A model generated the notes under the pieces. That model saw only the letters and a list, made by a program, of their open reading frames with translations. It ran no database searches and had not been told where the DNA came from. Source: Microbispora bryophytorum (GTDB taxonomy: Bacteria > Actinomycetota > Actinomycetes > Streptosporangiales > Streptosporangiaceae). From it: a DNA stretch of 64,000 bases. The position numbers were made by a program, and so were the translations under genes. Of the stretch, positions 62,054 through 64,000 are shown one piece after another (position 1 is the stretch's first letter; each line of letters begins with the position of its first letter). Location: NCBI RefSeq assembly GCF_006874465.1, contig NZ_VIRL01000002.1, forward strand, positions 328,092 through 392,091, written 5' to 3'.

Positions 62054-63016
62054 GTGCGAGGGCGTGTGCCGGTGGCCGCCGGTCTGGCCGCCGTGATCCT
62101 GCTTACGCCGGTGACGGGCGCGCAGGCGGATCCGAAGCCCACGGTCGCGCAGGCCAAGGCGAAGCTGAGCAAGCTCAACGAGCAGGCCGACAAGCTCGTC
62201 GACCGCTACAACGCGGCCAACGAGAAGTGGAAGAAGTCGCGGCAGAAGTACCTCGCGATCAACGACGACTACAAGAAGCAGAACACCCGGGTCGAGGCGC
62301 TGCGCTCCGGGCTGGTCTCGATGGCCGTCAGCAGCTACCAGGTCGGCGATATGGGCTCGTGGGGCGGTGTCTTCTACAGCTCCAACCCTGACGCCATGCT
62401 CAGCGGCCTCGCCACGCTCAACCACATGTCGGCCGAGCGGGCCGGGCGGCTCAGGGAGTACGAGGGCGCCATCAAGGACCTCAAGGACCGCCGCGACCAG
62501 AGCAAGGTGGTCTACAAGGAGGCCACCGACGTCAGGGGCGAGCTCGCCGGCGAGAAGGAGAAGGTCGACAAGCTCGTCCGGGAGCAGATGAAGCTCCTGC
62601 GCTCGCTCGGGACGTTCAACCCCGGCAACCCCAACAGCGCCGGCGTCGTCTACACCGGGCCGGCGTCCGGCAACGCGCTGTCGGCCCTCCAGTTCGCCTA
62701 CAAGCAGGTCGGCAAGCCCTACCGTTACGGGGGCACGGGACCGGCCTCCTGGGACTGCTCGGGGCTCGTGCAGGCCGCGTGGGCGGCGGCGGGCGTGACG
62801 CTGCCCCGGACCAGCTACGAACAGTGGGCCTGGGGCGCGAGCCGCAGGGTCTCGCTGGACGAGCTCCAGCCGGGCGACCTGCTCTGGCACGCCGGGTACG
62901 GGCACGTCGGCATCTACGCCGGCGACGGCAAGGTCGTCCACGCTCCGCAGACCGGCGATGTTGTGAAGATTGTCTCACTCGCCGAGTATCACGCGATCGG
63001 AGCCGTGCGCCCCTGA
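62054..63016 (+). CDS. RipC-like NlpC/P60 endopeptidase
   Basis: This 320-residue secreted peptidoglycan hydrolase has a signal sequence (VAAGLAAVILLTPVTGAQA, about residues 6-25), a long coiled coil (about 28-190), and a C-terminal NlpC/P60 domain with catalytic Cys235 (WDCSGLVQAAW), His284 (GYGHVGIYAG) and His296. The domain cleaves gamma-D-glutamyl-meso-diaminopimelate bonds. It is equivalent to Rv2190c, a RipC-type daughter-cell separation enzyme whose coiled coil is thought to hold it inactive until FtsX binds it. AAGGGGG stands four bases before the GTG start. A palindrome lies upstream. Confidence 0.93.
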   Translation: MRGRVPVAAGLAAVILLTPVTGAQADPKPTVAQAKAKLSKLNEQADKLVDRYNAANEKWKKSRQKYLAINDDYKKQNTRVEALRSGLVSMAVSSYQVGDMGSWGGVFYSSNPDAMLSGLATLNHMSAERAGRLREYEGAIKDLKDRRDQSKVVYKEATDVRGELAGEKEKVDKLVREQMKLLRSLGTFNPGNPNSAGVVYTGPASGNALSALQFAYKQVGKPYRYGGTGPASWDCSGLVQAAWAAAGVTLPRTSYEQWAWGASRRVSLDELQPGDLLWHAGYGHVGIYAGDGKVVHAPQTGDVVKIVSLAEYHAIGAVRP

Positions 63017-63088
63017 GGGGCTCGACCGGCTCTGTGATCTCTGTGCCTTTTGGGGCTTCTGTGCCCCGATTTGGCCGGTGTTGTGGAG

Positions 63089-63108
63089 ATTGTGAGCAGA
63101 GTCACAAT
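63089..63108 (+). promoter_or_regulatory. CRP box, perfect TGTGA-N6-TCACA
   Basis: ATTGTGA-GCAGAG-TCACAAT is a perfect 20-bp dyad matching the cAMP-CRP consensus in both arms. Its centre is about 42 bp before the predicted transcription start, the class II activator position. Confidence 0.8.
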
Positions 63109-63128
63109 TAGCGGTTTGCTGTGCGGGG

Positions 63129-63134
63129 TACGCT
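63129..63134 (+). promoter_or_regulatory. -10 element TACGCT of the riboswitch transcript
   Basis: TACGCT lies 21 bp after the CRP box, predicting a start near 63140 and a leader of about 360 bases before the CTG start codon. No good -35 box is visible, as expected for CRP-dependent promoters. Confidence 0.5.
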
Positions 63135-63221
63135 GCGCTTTCTTCTCGGCGGCCTTCGTTATCTGATCTTTATCCGGCGGGAGGACTTTGCCGAATGCGG
63201 CGGGTCCTGGGTAGCTTCTGG

Positions 63222-63248
63222 GCCGCGGCGAGCACGCCTCGCCGCGGC
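63222..63248 (+). other. Hairpin in the leader, 11-bp stem
   Basis: GCCGCGGCGAG and its exact complement enclose a five-base loop (CACGC). It lies upstream of the riboswitch and might stabilise the leader, or end read-through from the previous gene. Confidence 0.5.
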
Positions 63249-63349
63249 GCACCCGGTCCGGCCGGCCGGGTCGCGCAGTCATCCACCGTCATCGGCGCCC
63301 TTCATCACCCTCCCCTTCGCGGGATCCTCCGGCGCCGGTGGCCTGCCGA

Positions 63350-63492
63350 GTCCGTGCAGTCAGGAGGCACGGAGCCGGGGAACCATCGACCTTCACGCGA
63401 AGGTCCGGGGTGAATCGGCGCATCGCGCGCCGTAGGGCGACTTCCCCGCCCGAACCCGTCAGCTAACCCGGTAGGCGTGAGCGGAAGACCCG
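63350..63492 (+). ncRNA. c-di-AMP riboswitch (ydaO/yuaA type)
   Basis: The conserved cores of the ydaO/yuaA element are present in order: GAGCCGGGGAACC (about 63372-63384), GGGGTGAATCGGC (63407-63419) and, at 63434-63476, GGGCGACTTCCCCGCC followed by CGAACCCGTCAGCTAACC and GGTAGGC. This riboswitch binds cyclic di-AMP and usually turns expression off; in actinobacteria it precedes cell-wall hydrolase genes. The exact ends are approximate. Its expression platform is not obvious by eye. Confidence 0.92.
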
Positions 63493-63502
63493 AGGAGAGA
63501 TC

Positions 63503-64000
63503 CTGTCTACCACCCCCGCTAGTCTGTCCCGTCTTGCCCGAATTGCCCTTGGTGGTGCTGCTTTGACGGCATCCGTAGGGGCCGCCGGAGTACATCCGGC
63601 GGCGGCCGACACGGTGACGGTCACGGTCGTCAAGACGGCCCCAGCCAAGAAGACGGCTACGAAGACGGGCACCGAGAAGAGCGCGGACGCCGCCGCCCGC
63701 AAGGCCGCCGCGAAGAAGCGGCAGACCAAGAAGACCACCGCCAAGCGGAAGATCAGCAGGGCCTCGCTCCAGCGGGCCAAGGGCCTGCGCGCGGTGAAGG
63801 TCGCGGAAAAGCAGATCGGCGACCCCTACCGCTACGGAGCGACGGGACCGGGCGCGTTCGACTGCTCGGGCCTGGTCCAGTACGCCTGGCGCAGGGCGGG
63901 CGTACGGCTGCCGCGCACGACGTGGTCCATTCGCGGCGCGGTCAGGAAGAAGGTGTCCTGGGGTCACTTCGAGCCCGGTGACCTGATCTTCACCAGCGGC
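63503..64000 (+). CDS. NlpC/P60 cell-wall endopeptidase, 3' end beyond window
   Basis: This secreted hydrolase has at least 166 residues here. The signal region is SRLARIALGGAALTASVGAAGVHPAAAD, followed by a Lys/Ala-rich linker (KKTATKTGTEKSADAAARKAA in outline, about 50-85) and an NlpC/P60 domain with catalytic Cys121 (FDCSGLVQYAW); the catalytic His is expected past the window end. The start appears to be CTG at 63503: it is the only initiator in frame with good spacing from GAGGAGAG, and no ATG, GTG or TTG lies in frame upstream of the signal region. It is governed by the c-di-AMP riboswitch and CRP box upstream. Confidence 0.9.
   Translation, partial: MSTTPASLSRLARIALGGAALTASVGAAGVHPAAADTVTVTVVKTAPAKKTATKTGTEKSADAAARKAAAKKRQTKKTTAKRKISRASLQRAKGLRAVKVAEKQIGDPYRYGATGPGAFDCSGLVQYAWRRAGVRLPRTTWSIRGAVRKKVSWGHFEPGDLIFTSG

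Follow-up and report, generated by a model that had tools for sequence, protein, structure and literature searches.

Control of a cell-wall hydrolase gene by two second messengers has been described before. The nlpC gene of C. glutamicum (cg2402) is, like the gene studied here, an NlpC/P60 gene that carries both a c-di-AMP riboswitch and a site for GlxR, a regulator that depends on cAMP; its riboswitch is reported to act on translation in reporters, and no canonical terminator is described (PMC9960051). Unlike the present gene, it is presented with no mention of a non-canonical start in the main text of that paper, in which ATG, GTG and "start codon" do not occur (PMC9960051). The leader of S. 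coelicolor rpfA also joins Crp control to a c-di-AMP riboswitch in front of a muralytic enzyme (PMC10117811; PMC5693915), and the original prediction had likewise pointed to rpfA in Streptomyces as a precedent for each input. The product of rpfA, however, is a lysozyme-like Rpf rather than an NlpC/P60 protein, and its riboswitch is described as acting through transcription termination (PMC10117811), which differs from the mode proposed for the leader considered here and counts against it.

Conserved weak start codons are also known. In S. aureus, infC (AUA), ccpN (AUA) and cvfC1 (AUU) combine, as here, a conserved weak start with a strong Shine-Dalgarno (SD) sequence; the AUA of ccpN is common to S. 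aureus and B. subtilis, the AUU of cvfC1 is kept among staphylococci, and the S. aureus reporters with non-canonical starts are described as reaching ~10% of AUG in one medium and, for ccpN, up to 30% in another (PMC13009471). Unlike the present start, these are AUA or AUU rather than CUG, a codon absent from the main text of that report, in which no riboswitch coupling is described either (PMC13009471). In an M. smegmatis reporter selection with an SD, ATG, GTG, TTG and CTG are given as 20.5, 22.2, 28.7 and 0.03%, respectively (PMC4633059), and in E. coli the complexes formed on CUG are reported to be less stable than those on AUG, GUG and UUG (PMC11497404). CUG starts are missed wherever the start set is limited to ATG, GTG and TTG, as is stated for a reannotation of S. 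lividans (PMC8079986).

Because C. glutamicum nlpC has already been published with both inputs (PMC9960051), the dual wiring of an NlpC/P60 gene is not new, and the novelty claimed for a hydrolase with both inputs plus a rare start lies in the CTG and not in the inputs. Two-messenger control has a precedent on an NlpC/P60 gene, and what is both new and backed by strong evidence is the CTG start. No report of a CUG start constant across 23 genera behind a riboswitch was found in the open-access literature searched. It is nevertheless a known kind of thing, because infC, ccpN and cvfC1 are already described as conserved weak starts (PMC13009471).

Gene neighbourhood, CRP box and putative promoter

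The gene lies at the end of the window, by which we mean the whole stretch of 64,000 nucleotides of DNA that was analysed, and the source genome has a size of 7.85 Mb. An upstream NlpC/P60 gene is its tandem neighbour:

62054..63016, + strand, upstream NlpC/P60 gene (PF00877, E = 2.3e-23)
63503..64000, + strand, NlpC/P60 hydrolase gene, secreted-looking, running past the window end (PF00877, E = 1.1e-23 for the full protein)

The hydrolase is 210 codons long, its gene extending beyond the window, and the closest named matches of the protein are from Microbispora species. Besides the match to PF00877, the motifs DCSG and GGGHVG are visible in the protein; we take the Cys of the former and the His of the latter to be the catalytic residues of an NlpC/P60 hydrolase. 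The source genome encodes one DAC-domain protein, and it encodes a CRP that matches the solved mycobacterial CRP 3d0s (E = 3e-88) and chain 3r6s (E = 1.3e-83), the latter presumably corynebacterial GlxR.

The putative regulatory elements upstream of the leader are the following:

62962..62977, no strand assigned, further CRP-like palindrome with one mismatch, lying within the upstream NlpC gene at its 3' end
63091..63106, no strand assigned, CRP box, perfect palindrome TGTGA-N6-TCACA (motif scan and conservation)
63129..63134, + strand, -10-like TACGCT, read from the sequence, weak

The perfect CRP site that had been claimed is present. In one window the box is suggestive only, because two CRP-like palindromes with no more than one mismatch, against 0.51 expected, are also reached in 10 of 100 shuffles; the case for a putative CRP box is carried by its conservation among orthologues. 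All 38 orthologues of clade A keep it with at most one mismatch (31 perfect and 7 with one mismatch), compared with 0/38 when the same windows are read backwards. It is also perfect in 19 of 20 further fetched loci and has one mismatch in the other, and in a paralogue (clade B, n = 15) it is perfect in 4, has one mismatch in 8 and more in 3. Clades A and B were chosen by hand from a search allowing any NTG, and six duplicate sequences were removed.

The site, its spacing and its conservation suggest that cAMP-bound CRP at 63091-63106 would activate a class II-like promoter. If transcription starts near 63141, a position guessed from TACGCT, the centre of the CRP box would lie at about -42, and TANNNT is found 21-22 nt after the box in 14/38 clade A orthologues. 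The promoter is putative because a generic sigma-70 promoter scan of 63000-63700 found none and a terminator-like pattern at 63121-63138 overlaps the proposed -10; the -10 box that had been claimed thus exists as a hexamer, and its role is weakened by these two results.

The second palindrome at 62962-62977 is perfect in eight relatives (L009, L010, L012, L018, L021, L022, L024 and L029), and its inner bases differ between the one-mismatch and the perfect groups.

The c-di-AMP riboswitch and probable control of translation

Between the putative promoter and the gene, the leader contains the following elements:

63334..63488, + strand, c-di-AMP (ydaO/yuaA) riboswitch aptamer, RF00379, 75.2 bits
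63441..63445, + strand, CUUCC loop arm of a loop-tail pairing (matched loop/tail complementarity above that of shuffled partners)
63483..63487, + strand, GGAAG tail arm of the same pairing, ending 5 nt before the SD
63493..63497, + strand, SD AGGAG, read from the sequence (the collecting patterns required GGAG/AGGAG)

A complete ydaO/yuaA riboswitch had been proposed here, and a covariance search with RF00379 bears this out. The match at 63334-63488 exceeds the gathering threshold of 38 bits (75.2 bits, E = 1.2e-15), and covers model positions 1-134, that is, a full-length aptamer; nothing else in the 64-kb window reaches an Rfam gathering threshold. In the source genome, seven RF00379 matches were found (loci L001-L007).

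A loop-tail pairing downstream of P1 belongs to the RF00379 motif. In 112 riboswitch sequences from the fetched loci, taken as independent with their relatedness ignored, loop-tail complementarity is 5.06 for matched partners versus 4.50 for shuffled partners (sd 0.075), and some riboswitch types (L007) are without the pairing. The constancy of GGAAG across leaders is no evidence for it, since the collecting patterns required GGAAG.

A search for terminator-like sites between the aptamer and the hydrolase gene found none, and an intrinsic terminator as the expression platform was rejected for this reason. Since 5 nt separate the tail from the SD and the stretch from aptamer to gene shows no terminator-like site, control by the riboswitch is most likely translational, as is reported for C. 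glutamicum nlpC (PMC9960051). The long leader would fold into the riboswitch, and binding of c-di-AMP would stabilise the aptamer together with the CUUCC/GGAAG pairing, which, ending so close to the SD, may block ribosome loading. A ligand-bound fold that blocks translation thus appears to be the likeliest mode for this leader.

The probable CTG start and its conservation

63503..63505, + strand, CTG start codon, 5 nt after the GGAG of the SD (comparative evidence)

Comparison of sequences indicates that the CTG at 63503 is very probably the start of the hydrolase gene. No in-frame ATG, GTG or TTG is found upstream of it back to the stop TAA at 63464, which is 39 nt upstream and sits inside CAGCTAACC of the aptamer, and the next canonical in-frame codon downstream is a TTG at codon 21, within a signal-peptide-like stretch. 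The codon is not ATG, GTG or TTG, stands at SD spacing and is kept across genera. In clade A, CTG is present in 35/35 unique sequences and in 3 more that the first pattern missed; L031, L205 and L209 joined the clade via a pattern requiring ATCCTG, after CTG had already been observed in them. Because the collecting patterns required GGAAG, GGAG/AGGAG and the TG of the start, they can inform on the first base of the start and on the spacer but not on the fixed letters.

To this first base the wider search speaks directly. A leader pattern with the first start base left free gave 143 matches in 341 family genomes (139 genomes with matches, 23 genera), of which 140 are CTG, 3 are from a TTG paralogue and none is ATG or GTG (end types counted by eye), and the same pattern read backwards over the family genomes matched nowhere. 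The three non-CTG matches, all in one genus, have the sequence of the TTG paralogue taken one base too early, and the one that was retrieved is indeed that paralogue. Twenty matched loci, picked for odd spacers and new genera, were also fetched. Every one of the 20 encodes DCSG and lacks a canonical in-frame start upstream; the start is CTG in 19 and the TTG of the paralogue in one. Two genomes that gave no match in otherwise matching genera were re-searched: G305 has the same leader, again with CTG, but its linker is longer by one base (L281), and in G277 none of the six riboswitches has the clade A leader.

The orthologues have one common ancestor, and the CTG could therefore be regarded as a historical accident conserved by descent. 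However, the first start base never changes on the tree of 57 orthologues (38 + 19; length 13.4 substitutions per site), whereas 15 fourfold sites on the same tree show a mean of 12.3 changes and at least 6; moreover, ATG, GTG and TTG are reported to initiate far better in one reporter selection (PMC4633059). Conservation by descent alone is thus highly improbable.

Because CTG is given only 0.03% in that selection (PMC4633059), expression of the hydrolase could be negligible or start elsewhere. The real start would then be a downstream codon and the conserved ATCCTG a non-coding element, a reading that draws on the near inertness of CTG in the mycobacterial reporter (PMC4633059), on the TTG at codon 21 of the window gene and on a GTG at codon 5 in 5 of the 20 further fetched loci. 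It is at odds with the position of the first canonical in-frame codon, which is unconserved and wanders from codon 5 to codon 109 among relatives, and with the signal-peptide-like stretch read from the sequence, which a later start would truncate. Moreover, codons 2-19 evolve like coding sequence: over 23 sequences their pS/pN is 3.5 when read from the CTG, falls to 0.73 and 0.32 in the two remaining frames, and compares with 0.68 for the in-frame stretch upstream. In 22 of these 23 sequences the first canonical start comes after these codons. A downstream start is therefore very unlikely. The CTG start of the original prediction is upheld by the leader matches, by the unchanged first base and by the coding-like codons 2-19.

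The paralogue has CTG in 14/15 members of clade B and TTG at the aligned codon in 1/15, and this CTG was marked as a start because it persists in 14/15 although spacer lengths range over 6-8 nt. Codons 2-15 of the paralogue carry no coding signal (pS/pN of 1.04 in frame and 2.48 in another frame), which counts against a CTG start.

An ATC at 63500 was rejected as the start; it lies 2 nt from GGAG, is out of frame in several paralogues and is absent in some. A CUG-reading initiator tRNA was also considered and rejected: an initiator-like anticodon-arm pattern that left the anticodon open matched 29 times in 15 genomes, always with CAT, which leaves no initiator tRNA of this form to read CUG.

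In one genus, three genomes, one of them the source of locus L268, have both a CTG orthologue and a TTG-type paralogue, which make a natural start-strength pair.

The candidate hairpin, the weak CUG and other riboswitch-led genes

63493..63504, + strand, candidate AGGA-GAGA-UCCU hairpin that spans the SD and two start-codon bases (-2.9 kcal/mol alone)

This hairpin offers another explanation, namely that CTG is kept since its first two bases close an SD-sequestering AGGA-GNRA-UCCU hairpin, and not as a weak start. AGGA-GNNA-UCCU is present in 38/38 clade A sequences (3 of them collected with the ATCCTG pattern) and only its two loop bases vary, ATCCTG ends 133 of the 140 CTG matches (counted by eye), and a stability of -2.9 kcal/mol is predicted; in the leader context the hairpin folds no better than many shuffles. 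However, relatives with a missing or weak hairpin (AGGAGACACACTG, AGGAGACGTTCTG, AGGATTCGTTCTG and AGGAGCAATTCTG; 0 kcal/mol) still have CTG, and in the paralogue CTG persists although the stems of several members are degenerate. Since CTG remains where the hairpin is gone, the latter was rejected as the sole reason for CTG; this explanation is unlikely, and the hairpin would be at most an accessory to the CTG start, not its cause. In L250 (G150), AGGA-UUCG-UUCU replaces the GNRA-type hairpin with CTG kept, and its predicted stability alone is nil.

The same letters could also be read as DNA. AGGAnnnnTCCT forms an inverted repeat; of the 15 genus genomes, 14 contain a single copy of AGGAGNNATCCTGTC and one contains two. 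Both observations would suit an operator for a dimeric regulator. That one half-site of AGGAnnnnTCCT is simply the SD, and that the repeat decays in some relatives, speaks against an operator, which we regard as extremely improbable.

Taken together, this gene for a putatively secreted peptidoglycan hydrolase of Streptosporangiaceae is probably activated by cAMP-CRP, repressed at translation by c-di-AMP and limited in yield by a weak CUG that is kept by selection; we infer regulation by each of these three layers (CRP, riboswitch and CUG). Translation would begin at CUG with a good SD, for which the comparative evidence is strong. The CUG probably caps protein yield, given that initiation at CUG is very poor in other systems and that the codon is preserved here by selection. 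The tetraloop hairpin over the SD and start, which is common though not universal, may lower initiation still more. CUG is constant in 23 genera where any first-base change should strengthen the start, and this constancy suggests that the weak start is retained to restrain a dangerous enzyme further. The earlier proposal that a CTG start limits a potentially lethal enzyme would fit such extreme conservation. The weak CUG may also bring sensitivity to IF3 or ribosome state. That the CUG is a third, selected sensor, the leader combining the cAMP and c-di-AMP inputs with a reading of the initiation machinery (CUG depending on IF3 stringency and ribosome state) and having features that make a nearly dead codon usable, is a tentative and rather doubtful extension, and the leader as a sensor of translation rate, which had also been proposed, is speculation. 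The case makes a clean and testable example of weak initiation favoured by selection, linked here to two second messengers and to an enzyme that cuts the cell wall, and it suggests that the N-termini of these hydrolase genes may be misannotated.

CTG is found at the start position in 3 of the 7 riboswitch-led genes of the source genome, namely the window gene, the paralogue (L004) and L006. The L006 gene (position 1644, secreted-looking, no Pfam match) reads CTG at the start position in each of the 11 Microbispora loci found. In other genera, comparable genes begin with GTG (L174, L206, L211 and L220), with a CTG-looking start in L277 (by eye); because these are mostly GTG, the CTG of the L006 type probably arose separately from that of the NlpC genes. 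Starts of riboswitch-led genes were surveyed in loci with an SD-spaced start and a hydrophobic N-terminus, some loci giving no start; the clear starts outside clades A and B are ATG, GTG or TTG, and CTG as a general habit of riboswitch-led genes was rejected. In L221, L233, L235 and L240, CTG is listed besides a canonical start. The genes identified behind the seven riboswitches of the source genome include those of NlpC/P60, CHAP and GH25 proteins. In the highest-scoring riboswitch type (L001 and L068-L077), the enzyme frame opens far behind the aptamer, with a long stretch between them.
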